Origin: Candidatus Hydrogenedentota bacterium
Lineage (GTDB): Bacteria; Hydrogenedentota; Hydrogenedentia; Hydrogenedentales; JAEUWI01
Length of the DNA: 55,065 nt
Assembly: GCA_016182605.1 (NCBI GenBank)
Contig: JACPGE010000058.1
Coordinates: 1-55,065, forward strand
Direction: 5' to 3'
Position 1 is the stretch's first letter. Each line of letters begins with the position of its first letter. The notes under the pieces were generated by a model, which saw only the letters and a program-made list of their open reading frames with translations, had not been told where the DNA came from and did no database searches. Shown here piece after piece: positions 6,719 through 27,359 of the stretch. The translations under genes and the position numbers were made by a program.

Positions 6719-9184
6719 TCAGGGCCGGGACGTGGCCTCCAAGAGCCTGGCGTGGGGCAATTCCACCATGCTCAACGTGGGTTGCTCTGTGCTCCAATCG
6801 ATCAGGTGCAATGTGGCGCCCCGATCGGGAAGATAGGCTATGAATACACCGCGGTTGGGATTGAGCGTGCACAGGCCGTGCGGCTCCGAGTTGTTGGGTC
6901 CGGGCCAGAGATCGGCGGCCAGTTGGGGGGCTGCGTCCGCGGGTTCCTCTGGCAGGATCCAGAGTTCTTCACCGTGCACGCCGTCGTTTCCGGAGAAGAA
7001 GAGTTGTTTGCCGCCCATCATCATATTGTACGGCCCGCCGCTCTGGGCGCCCGGCCAAAGATCCGCGGCAATATGGGTACCTTCCGCTGTGCCGTCGGTC
7101 GACCAGAGCTCCAGGCCGTGCGCTGCATCCGTGGCCCGGAAATACAGGCGGCTGCCACCATCGACGAACCCGAAGGGATCGCCATCGCCCGGCCCGGGAT
7201 TCAGGTCGGCGAGGAACTGGGTGCCGGCGGCTGTGCCGTCGGTGACCCACAGTTCCCTTCCCGTGGCCTCGGTAAAGGCACGAAAGTACAAGCGGTCCTT
7301 CCAAATCGCGAACTCAGAGGGATCGGAGGAAGCGGGGCCTGGGGCAATGTCCGTGATACGTTCGACGTGCTTGTCATCGGGATGGTAGGCCCAAAGCTCT
7401 GCTCCGTGTCCGGCGTCCCCGTTTGTAAAGAGCAGGGCTCCGCCCAGTTCTTTCATCCAGCCCGCATCTTCGTAGACGTCCATGATGGGCCGAATTTCAT
7501 TCGTGGCGAAATCATGCCGGCACAACATCTGGCCGAGGTTGGGGTCTGCAAAGGCTATCACGTACAGGCCAGAGGAACTCCGCAGGATCTTGGGGGACAT
7601 CGGCATCGACTCGCCCGTTCCCGGCGCCAGATCCGCAATCATTGCGGTTTGTTTTTCGTTGGAGTTGCTGCACCAGAGTTCCCGCCCCGTTTGAAGCGTC
7701 ATGGCATAGAAATACACCACATTCTCCAGTATGGCGGCGGGAAAGGGCTCACTGCTCAGCGGCCCCGGAAGGATATCCTTGATCAGGCGGAAGCTGAACT
7801 TGCTCTTCTCGAATGCCGTGCAATACCACAATTCTTCGCCCGTCTCCGGCGTGGACGCGGCGAAGAAAGCGTCGCCGGTGGGTTGGCGCACGAAGATGCG
7901 GCGCGGGTGGCTCGATTCCGGGCCTGGGAGCACATCGGCCGCCAGGCTTGCCGCGCCGCTGTCGTTGACCGTCCAGAGCTCTTCGCCATGTATTCCGTCG
8001 TCATAGACGAAAAGGGCTTCGTCCGGTTTGATCTGCACGAGTTCCTTTGGGGCTGGCCGTGCGTTTGCGGCCGCGGGGGCCGTGGATTGCGGTTCGGGTG
8101 CGGGTGGCTGTGCCGGGGGCTGCCCCCAATACAGGGCTGCCGCAATGATCAGCCCCAGCGAGGCCAGCAACAGGGTGGAAGCGAGGATCTGACGTATCCG
8201 GTTTCCGAGGATTAGGGTGACTCCTCCACGATCCGGTGTTTTGATCAGCGCGGTCCTGGCGGCTTCTGGTTTCCTGGGAAGGCCGCGCAAGGGCGGGACG
8301 CCGCCGGGTGCGACGATGAATTCGGGCGTCTTAAGGAACAGTTCCAGCGCGGCGGAAGCGCTGACGGGGCGGTTTGCAGGATCGCGCGCGATGAGCGCGG
8401 CCATGAGCGCCGCGAAATCCGGTGAGAGATCGGGCCGGCTTTCGGACAGTGGAACGATCTTTCCTTGGAGAATCTCATGCATGATGCCCGGCAGGGTATT
8501 GCCCTTAAAAACTGGCCGGTCGGTGAGGGCCTCGTGGAGCAGCACGCCCAGGGCATAGATATCCCACTGCGGGGTGGGGGGCAGCCCCTCCCAGGCTTCG
8601 GGCGGGCTGTATTGGGGCGTGCCCCACAGGGGCCCCGAGGCCGTGGGTGTGGCGGGCGACATGGGCGCGCTGAGTTGGAGGGCGCGGGAGATGCCAAAAT
8701 CGGAGAGGAAGATCTGGCCGGTTTGCGTCACGAGCAGATTGCCCGGTTTCAGGTCACAGTGGATGACCCCTTGATCGTGGCACGCGGCGAGGGCGGTTAA
8801 GACTTGCCGCAGTATTTCCACGGCGTGTGCAACGGGCAATGGGCCGTTTCCCAGCAAGGCCGAGAGGGGGCTGCCATCGATATACTGCATTTCGATGGCC
8901 AGTTCGGCGCCCACCTGCTCCACGCGGTAGACGCGCACCACATTGGGATGCTCGATGCGTGCCGCGGCGCGCGCTTCACGCAGGAAGCGCCCGGCGCCTC
9001 CGGGGTGCGCCAGGAGGTGGGGATGGACCATCTTCAGGGCGACACGGCGCTCCAGGCGTTTGTCCCACGCCTCGTAGACCACGCCCATACCGCCCGAACC
9101 CAGGGTTCCGCGAATCTCATAGTTGCCCCCCGCCCACGTATCGTCAGCGCGTATTGGCAACGTCAAGCACTCCCTGGCGCCCAT
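6719..9184 (-). CDS. Transmembrane Ser/Thr kinase with ELW repeats
   Basis: An 821-aa protein. A PknB-type kinase domain spans residues about 22-290: glycine loop LGSGGMGVV, the lysine in ALKMV, catalytic loop VIHCDLKPGNLL and metal-binding DFG. The catalytic loop reads HCD rather than HRD, so this is a non-RD kinase. A single transmembrane helix lies at about 327-351, followed by a Pro/Ala linker. The extracytoplasmic region (about 375-800) carries seven to eight repeats with the core GxELW, three of them followed by TDGTxxGT or similar, and most ending in a D-x-x-PG turn. These resemble the ELWxTDGTxxGT repeats known from surface proteins and probably form a propeller. Inference: it senses something outside and phosphorylates inside. 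The start has a weak Shine-Dalgarno. It is transcribed away from dihydroorotase. Confidence 0.93.
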   Translation of the reverse strand: MGARECLTLPIRADDTWAGGNYEIRGTLGSGGMGVVYEAWDKRLERRVALKMVHPHLLAHPGGAGRFLREARAAARIEHPNVVRVYRVEQVGAELAIEMQYIDGSPLSALLGNGPLPVAHAVEILRQVLTALAACHDQGVIHCDLKPGNLLVTQTGQIFLSDFGISRALQLSAPMSPATPTASGPLWGTPQYSPPEAWEGLPPTPQWDIYALGVLLHEALTDRPVFKGNTLPGIMHEILQGKIVPLSESRPDLSPDFAALMAALIARDPANRPVSASAALELFLKTPEFIVAPGGVPPLRGLPRKPEAARTALIKTPDRGGVTLILGNRIRQILASTLLLASLGLIIAAALYWGQPPAQPPAPEPQSTAPAAANARPAPKELVQIKPDEALFVYDDGIHGEELWTVNDSGAASLAADVLPGPESSHPRRIFVRQPTGDAFFAASTPETGEELWYCTAFEKSKFSFRLIKDILPGPLSSEPFPAAILENVVYFYAMTLQTGRELWCSNSNEKQTAMIADLAPGTGESMPMSPKILRSSSGLYVIAFADPNLGQMLCRHDFATNEIRPIMDVYEDAGWMKELGGALLFTNGDAGHGAELWAYHPDDKHVERITDIAPGPASSDPSEFAIWKDRLYFRAFTEATGRELWVTDGTAAGTQFLADLNPGPGDGDPFGFVDGGSRLYFRATDAAHGLELWSTDGTAEGTHIAADLWPGAQSGGPYNMMMGGKQLFFSGNDGVHGEELWILPEEPADAAPQLAADLWPGPNNSEPHGLCTLNPNRGVFIAYLPDRGATLHLIDWSTEQPTLSMVELPHARLLEATSRP

Positions 9185-19382: not shown

Positions 19383-20729
19383 TCAGAAGAGTACGCGAGC
19401 TTCCAGATAGAATTCTTCATACTCGCCGCCACGCTCCGCCACCAGTGCAATGCGGTTCCCGCGCCGCACGTCGAAGAGGCCCACGAGGACTTCGGGATCG
19501 ATGTTGAAGACCTCCTCGCCATTTACAGCCACGAGCCGGTCCCCCGGCAACAGGCCAGCCTCCCCGCCCGGCCCGCCGGCCACGACCGCGAGAAACCAGT
19601 CCACGCCGTTCCAAATTGGCTGAAGCCCGTATCCTTCAATGGGGGTGCGTTGGACCTGCTTGCCTTGTGCGCCTTCGACGAGCGCGAGGCCATGCTCGAA
19701 GTTAATCGTGAGGCGCCCAAACGAGAAAAACTGGATGCCCGCCAGCGCCGGTGCAGCGCCCTCCAGCACTTCCACGACGGGATCGACCACGGTGAGGCCG
19801 CCCGTACGGCAGGAAGCGTAACGCAGGTAATAGTCCATGGAGCCGTCGGGATAGCCCATGCGGTATTCACCCGCGGCTTCGGCATTTGCCGGGATATCCG
19901 CGGAGTTCATGGAGATCATGCCATTGTATGCCAAATCGACCGTGCACGTAATCTCGCTCGCGCCGTTGAGCAGGAAAGGCATTCGAATGCCACCGTCTGT
20001 GCCGACCTGTATGGGTACGGCCTGGTCTTCCGTGGGCAGCCGCGCGAGTTCGAGGGAGCGCCATTCCACGGAAGACGGGGACCATTGCAGGCTCACTTCG
20101 AAGCCCGGCTGGTAGAGGGGCAAGAGGCCGTGAACTGCGGTACCCAGAGTGGCGGACAGCCCGGAAAGATCCGCGAGTACGGCTGGCGTGGTAAAGGGGG
20201 GCATGCCCGCGAAAGCCAGTTCCACATCGGCAGCTTGAATCCCCGTTGCGTCCGGAGGGTTATTTTCCGGTTCCGTTTGGGATTCGAAACAAACGGCGGG
20301 ATCCAGGACCACGCGCTGAATGCTTGCGTCCAGCACGAAGGCGCACGGTTCGGCGCCGTTGATAGCAACAGGAACCAGGTGCCTTCCGAAGATGAGGGTA
20401 GTGACCGCTGTGTAGTTCGAAGTGGGTACTTTTTCCGCGGAGGGGACGGCGGCGGAATCAGAAGATACCGGCTTGTCCGGTTTACTGGCGGGCTTGGGGG
20501 CAGCGCCGGCGGGTACTGCCGGATCGGGCACGGCCGGCGGCACAGGCGCCGGTTTCTCGACCGGCTTTTCTGCTTTTTGGGGCGCAGGGGGCAGCGTGGC
20601 GGCGGGCGGGGCCGGTATCTGCTGTGCGGGAGCCCGTAGGGGCCACCAGGCGGCGGAAAGGAGTACGGCAAGCAGCATGCTTCCACAGGCCTTCGCGGTA
20701 TCCGGAAAACTCTTGTACTTCACCTTCAT
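19383..20729 (-). CDS. PDZ protein with degenerate retropepsin-like domains
   Basis: A 448-aa protein starting at 20729 with an N-terminal export signal (SMLLAVLLSAAWWPLRAPA), then a Pro/Ala-rich linker to about residue 95. Two aspartyl-protease-like halves follow: VPVAINGAEPCAFVLDASIQ and ITCTVDLAYNGMI. In active relatives both positions read D-T/S-G; here they read DAS and DLA, so catalysis is doubtful. A PDZ domain closes the protein (GGEAGLLPGDRLVAVNGEEV). It is divergent from the large kinase gene. The frame stays open 84 codons upstream of the chosen start, in sequence that would overlap the kinase gene. Confidence 0.8.
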   Translation of the reverse strand: MKVKYKSFPDTAKACGSMLLAVLLSAAWWPLRAPAQQIPAPPAATLPPAPQKAEKPVEKPAPVPPAVPDPAVPAGAAPKPASKPDKPVSSDSAAVPSAEKVPTSNYTAVTTLIFGRHLVPVAINGAEPCAFVLDASIQRVVLDPAVCFESQTEPENNPPDATGIQAADVELAFAGMPPFTTPAVLADLSGLSATLGTAVHGLLPLYQPGFEVSLQWSPSSVEWRSLELARLPTEDQAVPIQVGTDGGIRMPFLLNGASEITCTVDLAYNGMISMNSADIPANAEAAGEYRMGYPDGSMDYYLRYASCRTGGLTVVDPVVEVLEGAAPALAGIQFFSFGRLTINFEHGLALVEGAQGKQVQRTPIEGYGLQPIWNGVDWFLAVVAGGPGGEAGLLPGDRLVAVNGEEVFNIDPEVLVGLFDVRRGNRIALVAERGGEYEEFYLEARVLF

Positions 20730-20922
20730 GGCTCCCACTGCTTGCTTCGGCCCCGGCGGCCGGTTCATCCGGTTCCTACTCATTATCCGGTATTTCGCGC
20801 CGGAATTGCAGCCCCAGGGCGCGCCCCCGGATTCAGGCATGCGGATGCGGGGACTTTCCGGTACAATGGCGCTCTGCTGCGGGATCCTGGGGGCAGCGTA
20901 CCGTTGGAAGGGAGAGGCGCTT

Positions 20923-23900
20923 TTGGAACGGGACCGCAATCTGATTTTTGGGCTGATGGCAGTACAACTTCGCCAGATCACACCGACGCAGTTTGTGGAG
21001 GCGGCGGCCGTTTGGGCCGAAGCGGGCCTGGGGGCGCTGGACGAGATCCTGGTGGAGAAGGGCTATCTGGAGGCCACCGAACGCGACTTTCTTCAGATGG
21101 TGGTGGGACAAGTGATCAAGGCGCATGGGGGCAATGCCACGGCCTCGCTTGCGGCAGTGGGTGGGGAAGAAGAACTTCAAACCATTGTGTCGCTGGGCCG
21201 GGAAGCCTCCCTGGGCCGCTCCCTCTCGTCGCACCTGGGCTGGAACCCGGAGGAAATGGCCGGGCAACTGCGGAAGACCGTGGCCTTGCGGGAGGCGCCG
21301 GACCGCTACGTGACCGTGCGCATGCACGACGAGGGGGGCATGGGCCGGGTATATCTGGTGCATGACGCGTACCTGGATCGCGAGATTGCCCTTAAGGAAC
21401 TTCGCATTGAGGGTGAAGACTTCGATTCGCACGCACCCGCCGGATCCACCCTGGCCCATTCCCAGAGCGATACGGCGCGGTTTCTTCACGAAGCCCAGAT
21501 CACCGCGCGGTTGGAGCATCCGTCCATCGTGCCCATATACGAAGTGGGCCGCCGCGACGATGGCGCCTACTATTACACGATGCGCTTCGTGCATGGGCGG
21601 ACCTTGCGCGATGTGATTCGCGGCGAGGAGCGCCTGGAGGGGCGCCTGCGGTTGTTGACCCATTTTGTTACGCTCTGCCAGGCGATTGCCTACGCCCACC
21701 ATCGCGGCATACTGCACCGGGATATCAAGCCGGCGAACATCATGATTGGAGAGTACGGCGAGACCATGGTGATCGATTGGGGACTGGCCACGGCCGTGGC
21801 CAATGGCGCCGCACGGGCACGCGACGGGAAGTCTGCCTCATGTCAGGATGCGGTCCCGGCAGCGGCCACGCCGTTCTCCAGCTCGAATGCGCCCTTGGGC
21901 ACCCCTTATTACATGCCCCCCGAACAGGCGGCCGGACGCCTTGAGGAGGTGGATATTCGATCGGATGTTTATTCGCTGGGCGCCGTGCTCTATGAGATTC
22001 TTGCGGGGAAACATCCCTTCGGTGGCCACACCAAGCAGGAAGTGCTGGATCAGGTCCTCCAGGGCGACCTGCATCCGCTGGAGCAAGCCGTGCCGGAAGT
22101 TCCTCCGGAACTCGCCCAGATTTGCAGGAAGGCGATGGCCCGGCGTCCCGAGGATCGCTATGCCAAGGCGGATGAACTTGCGGAAGACATCATCCGATAC
22201 CAGACGGGTGCGTTGGTGCAAGTCTACAAGTACAGCTTTTTCGAATTGCTTTGGAAGCACTATCGAAGGCGCCGCACCGTTGTGAACATTGCCGCGGCGG
22301 GGATACTGGCGGTGCTGCTGATTGCGGTCTATTCCTACGCGCAAATTTATCGCGCCCGGGAACGCGAGGTTCAACAGCGGAAGGCGGCGGAACAGGCGCG
22401 GGACAGCGCGCTGCTGGCGGAGCGCCGGGCCAGCGAAGCCCAGCACGGGGAGGCGCTCGCGCGGGAGAGGGCGGAACAGGAGGCCTATGTTGCCCGAATG
22501 CAGTTGGCCCAGCAATTTGAGGCGGGGGGGGATTACGAAGGGCTTCGAACGGTGCTGGAGGAGACGGTTCCGGGTTTTCGGGGCTGGGAGTGGGACTACC
22601 TGCATGCGATTTCGGACGAAGCGAGCCATACACTGCGGGGGCATAGCTCCGTCGTTAATTGGCTGCAATTCAGTCCAGAGGGCGCGCGGGCCTTGTCGTT
22701 TGGCGCCGATCAGAGCATCCGGGTGTGGGACCTGATCGCGGGCACACCGCTGTCCATGATCGATCCTCAAGCGAACCGGGCCAGCCTCGCGTGCTGGACA
22801 CCGGACGGCCAATCCATTGCCGTTTCCACGTGGAATGGGCAGATTCTGTTTTTTGACCCCGCGACCGCGCAACAGTTGCGTGTGCTGAATGCAGAATCGG
22901 TGCGCATCAACTACATGTGCTTTTCCATCGACAAGGAGCGCCTTTATACGGCATCGGACGATGGCGTGCTGGGAGAATGGGACTGGCAACGCGGCGTGTT
23001 GCTGCGAAGTCAGGATTTGGGGCAAGGCGCTATTGCCCGTATATTCCCGGACCATGCGGGCCGGCTCCTATTTACAGAGAGCGCGGTGCCCAACGTTACC
23101 GCCTGGCGGACGGACGACTTCACGATTGCGGGAAGCGCGCCTGGCCGTTTCGGGGCCGTGTCTGGGGATGACGCATTGTTGTGTACGGTTACCGGCACGG
23201 ATATTTCGATCGCGCCCTTGTCTCAGGAGGGCCCGCCGCGAAGCTGGAGGGCGCATGACGAACTGGTTTCTTCCACTGGCTTTCTTCCGGGCAGCCACAC
23301 GCTTGTGAGCAATGGGATAGCGGGGACTGTCCGGGCCTGGAACGCGGATACCGGGGAACAGCGGTTTCAATTGCCCTTGCCGGACAGCGCGTGCCGGGCC
23401 GTGGTGAATGCCACAACGGGTGAACTGGCGGTCTTGTCGGCACGCGGGCGGATCTCCCTGTGGGATTCGAAGGATGGAACACTGCTTGGGCATTTGCATG
23501 GGCACACGGGAAACGTGGTCTCGGGCGTATTCAGTCCAGACGGTTCCCGGCTCGTGACCAGCGGTATGGACCTCTCGATTCGGGTATGGGAAGAGGCCGA
23601 ACGCACGCGGGATGTTCTATCCACGCTCCAGAGTTCGGTCAGGAAACTGGCCATGCGGCCGGATGGAAAAGAACTGACTGCGGGATTGTATGACTCAACC
23701 ATCAACACCATCGATCCCCAAAGCCTGACCCGCCATCACGTGTTGGGCGCATTCACGCTTGGCGGCGTTGGTGCTCTGGCGTACCGCGCCGACGGCCGAC
23801 AACTGGCCGCGTGTCTGGGGGATTCCGGCGTGGCTGTCTTTGACGCCGAAAACCATCGCCTGGAACAGTACCTGTATACGATGGGCAGTATTGCCTCATG

Positions 23901-25239
23901 CGCCTACATCGGAGACACCACCCGTCTGGTCTTGAATCCGCACTATGGCCCGATTCAGGTGATAGATACCGGCACGGGCGAGACTACGGCCACGTTTGAG
24001 CAACACGATACGGCTCCGAGCATCATGGCAGTTTCGGAAACTGGGGACTGGATCGCGGTGGGATCGGATTCTGGTGAATTGACGGTATGGCCCACCTCGG
24101 GCGGAGCGCCGCGCTTTGTGTTGCCGCTTGCCAGCTCCCGGATCGTCGCGTTGGCCTTTCTGGACGAGAACAGACTGGTCACGGGCGATTTCGATGGCAA
24201 TATTCGCGTCGTGGATTGTGCACGTGGCGAGAAAATATTCGAATCTCTGGAGCCTGGCCGCGAAGTTCACGCGATCTGCCCGATCCCTGGCAGCGGACGA
24301 TTCGCCGTTGCAGCCCGATCGCAGAGTGTCCGCATCTGGGATGTGGACTATCGGCACAGCCTGATCGAGATTCCCGTGGGCGGCCACGGCGTGGATGCGA
24401 TGGGGATGGGAGGAGGCGCACTCTGGGCAGCGGATTCAGGGAGTGGTCTGCACATTCTTCGAACCGAACGCCACGGCGGCAGGGGCATACCCGAAGGTGC
24501 GGTCCCGCCGTCGGCGCAACCGGGCCCGGTACCTTTTGATGTTTACATTAGCCCGGAGCACCATGAGCGCACGGTCCGGTTTTTTCTGGCACAAGCCGAA
24601 GGGATGGATTTTGCGCGTGCGCCCGAGGCGCTTCCTGCCGCGCTGGCGCAGCGCGCCGCGCGCTGGTGTCTTCATGAAGGCGACCAGATCCTGGAGTTCG
24701 ACGGTCAGGCGGTAAGCACGTGGCCGGAATTTGTCACGCGGGTTCAAGGCGCGCTTGCCGAGGGAGCCCTTCCCAAGTCGGTGTTGTTGCGGCGCGCATC
24801 GGAAAGCCTGGCGCTGAGCTTTCACAGCGTTCCAATGAAATCGGAATCCCGGGAGGTTGTATTGGCCCGGGCCGAAGCGGCGGCTTTTTTTGAGGCGGTA
24901 CCAAGTTTCGGTCCCGTCGATCGCCAGTTTATCCAGGAACGCAGCGCAAATGCTGCACAGGCTATAGGGGAAAACCTTCAGGACGGGCGCCTGCCGGGCA
25001 TCGAAATTGGATTGCCACAGAATGCTGCTCAGGCGGCGCTAATCGCGCGTATGTCGCTTGTTCCGGGCTCCATGATGATTCGTATCGACGGTGTGGCGAT
25101 GGAATCGATGGAGATCTTGGAGCAGACCAGTTCGGCCATGTTGCGCCGGATCCAAAGTCAAACGGTCGATTCATTTGAGATCGAACTGGAGATGGGCCTC
25201 TTTCAGCGGCTGAGGCTTGACTATCGCCTGACGGAATAA
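20923..25239 (+). CDS. Giant Ser/Thr kinase with WD40 and PDZ domains
   Basis: A 1438-aa protein. I place the start at a TTG (20923) with AAGGGAGAGG eight bases upstream, giving LERDRNLIFG as the first residues; the open frame runs back 167 codons through the antisense of the PDZ gene and is not used. Order: a conserved helical N-terminus (1-120); kinase domain (about 127-425) with EGGMGRVY, ALKEL, LHRDIKPANIMI and DWG in place of DFG; transmembrane helix (about 449-473); Ala/Glu/Arg coiled coil (about 476-530); about a dozen WD40-type blades (about 566-1175) with GHSSVV, VWDL and GHTGNVVSGVFSPDG; and two PDZ-like domains at the end (LHEGDQILEFDGQ, VPGSMMIRIDGV). The propeller would lie outside the membrane. 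A receptor-type kinase. Confidence 0.93.
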   Translation: MERDRNLIFGLMAVQLRQITPTQFVEAAAVWAEAGLGALDEILVEKGYLEATERDFLQMVVGQVIKAHGGNATASLAAVGGEEELQTIVSLGREASLGRSLSSHLGWNPEEMAGQLRKTVALREAPDRYVTVRMHDEGGMGRVYLVHDAYLDREIALKELRIEGEDFDSHAPAGSTLAHSQSDTARFLHEAQITARLEHPSIVPIYEVGRRDDGAYYYTMRFVHGRTLRDVIRGEERLEGRLRLLTHFVTLCQAIAYAHHRGILHRDIKPANIMIGEYGETMVIDWGLATAVANGAARARDGKSASCQDAVPAAATPFSSSNAPLGTPYYMPPEQAAGRLEEVDIRSDVYSLGAVLYEILAGKHPFGGHTKQEVLDQVLQGDLHPLEQAVPEVPPELAQICRKAMARRPEDRYAKADELAEDIIRYQTGALVQVYKYSFFELLWKHYRRRRTVVNIAAAGILAVLLIAVYSYAQIYRAREREVQQRKAAEQARDSALLAERRASEAQHGEALARERAEQEAYVARMQLAQQFEAGGDYEGLRTVLEETVPGFRGWEWDYLHAISDEASHTLRGHSSVVNWLQFSPEGARALSFGADQSIRVWDLIAGTPLSMIDPQANRASLACWTPDGQSIAVSTWNGQILFFDPATAQQLRVLNAESVRINYMCFSIDKERLYTASDDGVLGEWDWQRGVLLRSQDLGQGAIARIFPDHAGRLLFTESAVPNVTAWRTDDFTIAGSAPGRFGAVSGDDALLCTVTGTDISIAPLSQEGPPRSWRAHDELVSSTGFLPGSHTLVSNGIAGTVRAWNADTGEQRFQLPLPDSACRAVVNATTGELAVLSARGRISLWDSKDGTLLGHLHGHTGNVVSGVFSPDGSRLVTSGMDLSIRVWEEAERTRDVLSTLQSSVRKLAMRPDGKELTAGLYDSTINTIDPQSLTRHHVLGAFTLGGVGALAYRADGRQLAACLGDSGVAVFDAENHRLEQYLYTMGSIASCAYIGDTTRLVLNPHYGPIQVIDTGTGETTATFEQHDTAPSIMAVSETGDWIAVGSDSGELTVWPTSGGAPRFVLPLASSRIVALAFLDENRLVTGDFDGNIRVVDCARGEKIFESLEPGREVHAICPIPGSGRFAVAARSQSVRIWDVDYRHSLIEIPVGGHGVDAMGMGGGALWAADSGSGLHILRTERHGGRGIPEGAVPPSAQPGPVPFDVYISPEHHERTVRFFLAQAEGMDFARAPEALPAALAQRAARWCLHEGDQILEFDGQAVSTWPEFVTRVQGALAEGALPKSVLLRRASESLALSFHSVPMKSESREVVLARAEAAAFFEAVPSFGPVDRQFIQERSANAAQAIGENLQDGRLPGIEIGLPQNAAQAALIARMSLVPGSMMIRIDGVAMESMEILEQTSSAMLRRIQSQTVDSFEIELEMGLFQRLRLDYRLTE

Positions 25240-25244
25240 TCTGC

Positions 25245-25273
25245 TTGACGAATTGGGGCGCAATCTATATTCT
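25245..25273 (+). promoter_or_regulatory. Promoter of the 217-aa gene
   Basis: TTGACG at 25245-25250, a 17-bp spacer and TATTCT at 25268-25273. Transcription would start near 25281, about 47 bases before the start codon. The box begins six bases after the kinase stop codon, so the small gene has its own promoter. Confidence 0.6.
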
Positions 25274-25327
25274 TCTCATAGTTTAGTTCGCATGCCGCTA
25301 TATGTCCAAATAAAGGGGAGCTACACC

Positions 25328-25981
25328 ATGAGCGGATTGTATTTCGATGTGCGCCAGACCGTACCGGCGCCGAATAACGCCGACCCGCAGTTTCAAAATG
25401 CGTATAACGTCATCAATCGCACGATTATTCTGACGGAAAACATCAATTATACGCGCCTGTTTACCCGTCCCTTTGCGTCGCTCGCGCTGGAGTTCATTCC
25501 TCAACTTAACCAAATCGATGCGCACGGCATTTTCGACACGCCCGCGGCCAAGGATGCCTGCGTTGGCGCCATGAACACGATCCGGGACACGCTGGGAACT
25601 GACACGACGTCGATCCGGGATTTCTTCGGACAGGGGGTCACTGGGGCTCTGCGGACCCAATTCGAGGTATTGTCGACGAACGGAATCGGCATGCCCTTTC
25701 TGTTTGCGCAGGGCCCGGAATGCGTGGCCGCCATCGATGCGGTAGTGGAGCATCTCGGCCACATGACGGAGCTGCATCTCTACACCGAGTCCAAGGCCTT
25801 CCACGCGAAGAACAATCCAGAGATTGTTGCCGCCGTGGAGCAGGCGAAGGCGGCCCGGGTTCTCGCATTGAAGAACAACAATTTGTATTGTCAAAGCCCG
25901 GGGAATTGCCAATACCGATTGAACAGTTGGTGCAGCACTACTGTTGGCGGCAATTGTGTACTTGCGTCGGCCTCGGCGTAG
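25328..25981 (+). CDS. Unrecognised 217-aa protein with Cys-rich tail
   Basis: Not a family I know. The start at 25328 follows GGGGAG by seven bases. Residues 1-185 look soluble and mostly helical, with no signal peptide or membrane helix. The last 30 residues change character: four cysteines in CQSPGNC, SWC and GGNC, with Asn, Ser and Gly, ending LASASA. Base composition is more even and codon choice less GC-biased than in neighbours. It has its own promoter, a strong ribosome site and a downstream hairpin, suggesting high expression as a single gene. It might be a structural or secreted disulfide protein, a metal-binding protein or a peptide precursor with a long leader. None of these is proven. 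Confidence 0.8.
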   Translation: MSGLYFDVRQTVPAPNNADPQFQNAYNVINRTIILTENINYTRLFTRPFASLALEFIPQLNQIDAHGIFDTPAAKDACVGAMNTIRDTLGTDTTSIRDFFGQGVTGALRTQFEVLSTNGIGMPFLFAQGPECVAAIDAVVEHLGHMTELHLYTESKAFHAKNNPEIVAAVEQAKAARVLALKNNNLYCQSPGNCQYRLNSWCSTTVGGNCVLASASA

Positions 25982-26001
25982 ATCACGGACTTAAAGAGGA
26001 A

Positions 26002-26022
26002 CGGCCCGCGCTTGGCGGGCCG
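26002..26022. terminator. Terminator hairpin between convergent genes
   Basis: CGGCCCGC and GCGGGCCG form a perfect 8-bp GC-rich stem around a 5-base loop. It sits between the 217-aa gene and the convergent aminotransferase gene and can serve both. No long T tract follows on either side. Confidence 0.6.
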
Positions 26023-26045
26023 CTCCTATTGGTGAGTACTGTAGG

Positions 26046-27359
26046 TTAGCGGGAGAGGGCCTGATACTTTTTCAGTTCGCCCACCTTGAGCTTGCGCACC
26101 TCGGCGATATTGTCCACCAATTTGCGGACTGCGGCCGCCACCAGATCCATGTCTGCTCTGGAATTCATCAGCATCTGGTGATGCACGGTGATGCCGCTTT
26201 TCCGATTGGCTTCGACGCAGACCGGGATCTTGTTGATCGCGGGGTTGATGGCCTTCCAGTAGTCCTTGCTCAGGTTGTGGCGCTTCTTCGTGCGGGGCTT
26301 GTAGAGGCCGCAGTTGCTGAGGGGGTCGTAGGGCGGTTCGAAGTCGTCTGTCAGGCGCAGCTCGGCGTTCAGGGCCATGCAGAACTGGGCGTTCGTCACC
26401 TTCAGTTCCTTCGGGTCGACGCGGAAGGCGAAATTGAAGTAGCTCTGCTGGGTGACTTCCTTGCGGCGGCGCATCGGGAGCACGCCGTCGATTTCCGCGA
26501 GCTGTTGGTTCAGGTAGATTGCGTTCGCGTCGCGGTCTTTCACCTGCTTGTCGAGCCGGCTCAGCCCGCCGAGCAAAATGCCCGCCTGCCATTCGGTGAT
26601 GCGGTAGTTGCCCGACTGAATCGCGCTGTCCTTGGGGGCGGGTTTTTTCAAACCAAACACTGCCGGGTCCGCGGGGTAAGGGCGTCCGCAGTTGCGCAGG
26701 CTGTAGAGGCGGTAGAAGAGTTCTTTGGTCTTGCACATGCTGAAGCCGCCCTCGCCCGAGGAGAGGACCTTCGATTCCTGGAAGCTCCAGGAACTGACAT
26801 CGCCGAAGCTGCCCACGCCCTGGCCCTTCCAGAAGGTGCCGTGCTGGTGGGCGCAGTCTTCGATCAGGTGCAGCTTGTGCTTTTTGCAGAGCGCGGCCAG
26901 CTTCGTGATATCGGTCACGGAACCGTAGAGGTGCACCACGATGACGGCGCGGGTGCGCTTGGTGATTGCGGCCTCCACCGAAGCGAGATCGAGATTCCAG
27001 GTGTCCGGTTCCACATCGGCCAATACGGGGACGGCGTTCACATCCACGCATGCGGCCGCAGTCGCCTGCCAGGTCATGCCGGGCACGATGACTTCGTCGT
27101 AGGCGCCGATGCCCAAGGCTTCGAGGGCCATCTGAATGCCCACGGTGCCGTTGGCATTACACATGCCGAAATTGGCCTTCTGGTACTTGGTGAAGGCTTC
27201 GGCAAATTTCCATTCGTAGGGGCCGTCAAAGGACCAGCGGTTGCTGCGGGTGATTTCGGCCAGCAACTTCGCGTCTTTTTCTTCGCTGACGGGCCACTTG
27301 GCCCATTTTTTCGACTTGGCGCCGAGGGGTGCGCCGCCGAGAATTGCGAGATTGGACAT
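26046..27359 (-). CDS. DegT/DnrJ/EryC1/StrS aminotransferase
   Basis: A 437-aa PLP-dependent enzyme of fold type I. The PLP lysine is in SFQESKVLSSGEGG (about residue 200), preceded by the aspartate in LHLIEDCAHQHG. The substrate-side sequences CNANGTVGIQMALEALG and VIVPGMTWQATAAA are typical of the sugar aminotransferase and AHBA-synthase branch. It probably aminates a keto-sugar or related ketone for glycan or metabolite synthesis. GGAGGAG precedes the ATG. No nucleotide-sugar genes are adjacent; the next gene on this strand is an MsbA-type exporter. Confidence 0.93.
   Translation of the reverse strand: MSNLAILGGAPLGAKSKKWAKWPVSEEKDAKLLAEITRSNRWSFDGPYEWKFAEAFTKYQKANFGMCNANGTVGIQMALEALGIGAYDEVIVPGMTWQATAAACVDVNAVPVLADVEPDTWNLDLASVEAAITKRTRAVIVVHLYGSVTDITKLAALCKKHKLHLIEDCAHQHGTFWKGQGVGSFGDVSSWSFQESKVLSSGEGGFSMCKTKELFYRLYSLRNCGRPYPADPAVFGLKKPAPKDSAIQSGNYRITEWQAGILLGGLSRLDKQVKDRDANAIYLNQQLAEIDGVLPMRRRKEVTQQSYFNFAFRVDPKELKVTNAQFCMALNAELRLTDDFEPPYDPLSNCGLYKPRTKKRHNLSKDYWKAINPAINKIPVCVEANRKSGITVHHQMLMNSRADMDLVAAAVRKLVDNIAEVRKLKVGELKKYQALSR

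Follow-up and report, generated by a model that had tools for sequence, protein, structure and literature searches.

The DNA analysed here, referred to as the window, is the whole 55,065-nucleotide stretch of contig JACPGE010000058.1 (GenBank assembly GCA_016182605.1) from a Candidatus Hydrogenedentota bacterium. It carries, on the forward strand, a gene ending at position 25239 that encodes a kinase and WD40 protein with one membrane span and, directly downstream, a gene for a 217-aa protein with a Cys-containing C-terminal tail. The features of the locus, with their basis in brackets, are:

20422..25239, + strand: partner receptor kinase, longest frame 1605 aa (Pfam, hydropathy)
21331..22164, + strand: cytosolic kinase domain with HRDIK and DWG motifs (Pfam, topology)
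22276..22332, + strand: single membrane span after KHYRRRR, N-terminus inside (hydropathy)
22612..24351, + strand: WD40 propeller region, probably outside of the membrane (Pfam; topology inferred)
24421..25233, + strand: two PDZ-like domains, on which the search for partner kinases was based (profile)
25245..25273, + strand: sigma-70-like promoter TTGACG-17-TATTCT, weak evidence (9/12 matches)
25314..25320, + strand: ribosome binding site AGGGGAG (sequence; 7 nt upstream of the ATG)
25328..25981, + strand: gene for the 217-aa Cys-tailed partner protein (translation, family homology, ribosome site, N-termini of relatives)
25328..25876, + strand: variable, predicted helical body, residues 1-183 (alignment; low-confidence single-sequence model)
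25877..25978, + strand: conserved Cys tail, residues 184-217, with C188, C194, C202 and C210 (alignments, tail profile)
25997..26027, + strand: GC-rich hairpin between convergent genes, without a T run (folding energy and sequence)

The 217-aa frame runs from the ATG at 25328 to the stop codon at 25979-25981, its C-terminal end being NNLYCQSPGNCQYRLNSWCSTTVGGNCVLASASA. The gene is real: translation confirms the frame and the four-Cys tail that an earlier note, made from the letters alone, had described, and the ribosome site reported there is present at a spacing of 7 nt. Relatives with the N-termini MSGWSFDI, MTGWSFDI or MSGYFDV support both the start at 25328 and the absence of a signal peptide, as the note had stated. 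Two of its readings of the flanking DNA held in part. The promoter credited to the gene does match the sigma-70 pattern at 9 of 12 positions, but it is rated weak because a 1-kb scan returned 2 promoter-like sites where 0.7 +/- 0.9 were expected; with a promoter this weak, the kinase and partner genes of the window need not be co-transcribed. With -32.2 kcal/mol and z = -5.4 the downstream hairpin is a strong one, but the missing T run means that it is not a canonical terminator. A DegT-type aminotransferase gene (26046-27359, minus strand) lies 3' of the partner gene, and its counterpart in a related genome (G001), 74% identical, also follows the partner, so that the kinase-partner-aminotransferase order is conserved between genera. 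The window encodes a second kinase of about 820 aa at 6719-9184 on the minus strand, which is without a partner gene of the Cys-tailed family.

Searched as a lone query, the window protein found relatives in genomes G006 and G001 of the same taxonomic family (1.7e-13 and 3.3e-9), with which it shares a homologous body. These two relatives (L004: 8183-9475; L005: 8611-9900) display a tandem duplication of the body within one protein, with a single Cys tail at the end. Iterated profile searches, completed by others that started from the kinases or from the tail only, yielded a Cys-tailed family of 30 members, spread over 20 of the 68 genomes that represented the phylum, while no credible member was found among roughly 318 genomes searched outside it. 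One match outside the phylum (G175, E = 0.004) was rejected, as the frame was interrupted by stops and no Cys-tail protein was present. Single-sequence searches of genome contigs, viral contigs and plasmids, and a three-sequence alignment search of genome contigs, found nothing. The window protein has no match over the cut-off in any Pfam, NCBIfam, PHROGs or PADLOC family, and nothing even at E = 10 in Pfam and NCBIfam; its 27 aligned relatives gave no convincing match in the same four collections. Profile matches of body and tail to the PDB, none better than E = 0.02, were too weak to be credible. The protein is still unrecognised, as the note had it, and these searches gave no clear match to a known enzyme or structural family covering its tail. 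Homology nevertheless places it in an undescribed bacterial family, and the suggestion that it might be an orphan falls.

The relatives combine a conserved tail with a variable body, a pattern that the note had proposed to look for. Their bodies, of 180-310 residues and with a conservation of their own, are about 20% identical to that of the window protein, while C188, C194 and C202 are invariant in the 27 aligned members and C210 is kept in 26 of the 27. Such conservation is more than chance would give, and the alignments mark the Cys tail as the hallmark of the family and as a module distinct from the body, in agreement with the abrupt change described earlier. The core form of the tail is N-x3-C-x(4-6)-C-x(6-9)-C-x(6-11)-C at the C-terminus, where W, Y or F usually comes right ahead of the third Cys, and the window tail alone scores E = 2.2e-8 against a tail model that includes the window sequence. 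One clade, whose members all carry Sec or lipoprotein signals, has an extended tail with 6-10 Cys, mostly of the form CC-x6-C...CxxC...CC-x5-C. When the phylum was searched with the tail profile, the only matches were Cys-tailed family members, and the tail is therefore not a common sorting signal of unrelated proteins. Of 87 long frames in a crude set, 8 carried at least four Cys in the last 45 residues, namely 7 family members and one probably spurious frame.

The body, called helical in the note, is also predicted to be so by an AlphaFold single-sequence model of low confidence (mean pLDDT 36.6); no confident structure or complex prediction was obtained for the partner protein. The LASASA end, listed earlier as a feature of the tail, is not conserved in the family. 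A reading of the partner C-terminus as a classical PDZ ligand was dropped, as the end residues vary (SASA, NCPP, VMSD, SSP, TWCP) and no conserved hydrophobic C-terminal residue was found across the family C-termini.

The earlier note had correctly placed a receptor kinase directly upstream, but it treated as a mere neighbour what proves to be a conserved and co-evolving partner. Kinases of the same class (kinase domain, one membrane span, WD40 and two PDZ-like domains) lie directly upstream on the same strand of 25 of the 29 members with readable upstream DNA (the member on contig C189 of G004 was left out). For one member (G010, C45) a single subtilase gene lies between kinase and partner, another (G032, C660) adjoins a divergent kinase-WD40 gene, and two (G010, C3; G055, C457) have no such kinase as neighbour. 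The intervening subtilase (L126 / L086) has a Tat-like N-terminus and is possibly a processing enzyme. Genome G055 also contains a partner-less kinase (L079, C933) on a different contig from its kinase-less partner gene (L105), and the two are perhaps a split pair. In every kinase whose sequence was read over this region, a single span follows immediately on the kinase domain and is preceded by basic residues.

The linkage was also found in the reverse direction, with a profile of the PDZ pair built from 13 partner kinases, a test independent of how the family was found. This profile revealed 18 further kinases of the class in the phylum, two of which end at a contig edge; 13 of the 16 evaluable ones are followed by a family member, one of them cut by a contig end with a body that still matches, and three are not. 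In the genome of the window, which encodes 28 kinases over the Pfam cut-off, all three family members lie behind kinases (the window protein and two in tandem on contig C105), an arrangement whose probability by chance is roughly 1e-7 given our own estimate of 5,500 genes. At the C105 locus (L072: 2816-13480), where the two pairs follow each other, the first partner has no signal and 8 tail Cys, and the second has a Tat-like signal and an altered position of the last Cys. A fourth long kinase with a similar PDZ-like end stretch is encoded on contig C124, where 370 bases are left to the contig end. Three loci of genus g2 (L019, L038, L040) share a convergent aldolase-like gene, of the HpcH/HpaI type by eye, after the partner, by which their pairs are orthologous by position.

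Kinase and partner also vary together. For 25 pairs, distances between the outside parts of the kinases (last 290 residues) and between the partners were correlated (mirror-tree, Mantel r = 0.72, p = 2e-4), and none of 5,000 permutations exceeded 0.32. This overall correlation is partly shared species history; when paralogues were swapped within genomes, which removes the species signal, the true pairing ranked 3 of 288, and this rank argues for specificity of pairing on a small sample. Taken together, synteny and co-evolution point to a shared pathway and not to binding as such.

Family members differ widely in how they would leave the cytosol. By eye, the N-termini show a Sec signal in 10 of the 30 members, a lipoprotein signal in 2, a Tat-like signal in 5 and no signal in 13; the last group includes the window protein, an export signal being a majority feature of the family that is not required for membership. 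The signal types cluster on the tree, where Sec and lipoprotein members form a supported clade and signal-less and Tat members another group, and TatC is present in the genome of the window and in 11 of 12 genomes tested. That one family keeps the same Cys tail while changing its mode of export among members (no signal, Tat, Sec or lipoprotein) is unusual in itself.

On balance, we lean towards the family being dedicated partners, as ligands or co-receptors, of this one class of receptor Ser/Thr kinases. Partnership in one pathway is well supported by gene order and co-variation, and we infer the biochemical role. The partner would bind the outside part of the kinase, that is the WD40 propeller and the two PDZ-like domains, and the tail may form a compact knot, closed by disulfides or a metal, that would hold the binding surface in place or signal redox state or folding; the disulfide or metal protein envisaged by the note survives in this form. 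For exported members a meeting with the outside part is natural. The 13 signal-less members, whose kinases have the same topology, are the main weakness of a ligand role; they may reach the outside, or may stay in the cytosol and act on the kinase domain there.

A rather unlikely alternative, though the best placed, reads the protein as output of the kinase and not as its input. It would be a structural or effector protein, secreted or at the cell surface, that has a disulfide-bonded tail and is inherited along with the kinase, which would govern how it is made or exported. The Sec, lipoprotein and Tat signals of 17 members, the 6-10 tail Cys of the Sec and lipoprotein clade and the promoter-like site in front of the window gene are all in keeping with such a product, but the presence of one kinase per partner and the co-variation with the outside part of the kinase fit binding better than regulation, and three separate pairs in one genome also speak against this alternative. 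We consider it improbable that the signal-less members are cytosolic substrates or regulators of the kinase domain, with the four-Cys tail as a zinc site or thiol switch and the Tat and Sec versions derived or moved outside later. Such a role would suit the 13 members without any signal, the window protein among them, their place in one clade with Tat members, and the ability of Tat to carry proteins folded in the cytosol, whereas the same tail family is exported in other members and the part of the kinase measured to co-vary is the outside part. A leader-core precursor, also raised by the note, whose Cys tail would become the core of a ribosomally synthesised and modified peptide, has very little in its favour: the abrupt change of composition and the Cys, Ser, Thr, Gly and Asn of the tail resemble lanthipeptide and other RiPP precursors, whose short C-terminal stretch likewise contains Cys, Ser and Thr, but here the body is long and conserved, close pairs show similar conservation of tail and body, where a core peptide would be hypervariable, 17 members have Sec or Tat signals, the genome of the window has neither a LanC (LANC_like) nor a YcaO match, and in the loci read no modifying enzyme, SPASM and radical SAM genes included, is conserved beside the gene, in line with what the note had seen at this locus.

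The kinases can also be set against known receptors. Among bacterial Hanks-type receptor kinases, PknD and PknB have a propeller or PASTA domains as their outside sensor, and the partner kinase shares with them the cytosolic Ser/Thr kinase, the single span and the outside sensor; it differs in that its outside part comprises WD40 and two PDZ-like domains. The kinases are of a known general kind. To our knowledge, neither the partner family nor its association with these kinases has been described: the literature search found no description of a Cys-tailed partner and receptor kinase pair or of a Cys-tailed family directly behind Hanks-type receptor kinases, and we know of no such family. In plants, SRK and SCR/SP11 are a receptor kinase and Cys-rich ligand pair, and there too the genes of the kinase and of the small Cys-rich protein are linked and co-vary; the two systems have no homology, the Cys module here is a tail on a 180-310-aa body, and binding of kinase and partner is here a prediction. 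It would be a long shot, drawn by analogy, to see in the family a bacterial counterpart of such eukaryotic pairs, with several co-evolving, non-interchangeable pairs per genome that might serve cell-to-cell or self recognition within one phylum.

For most bacterial receptor Ser/Thr kinases that have an outside propeller sensor the input is unknown, and a co-evolving gene that adjoins the receptor would offer a concrete candidate, open to test, for the ligand or co-receptor that is missing.
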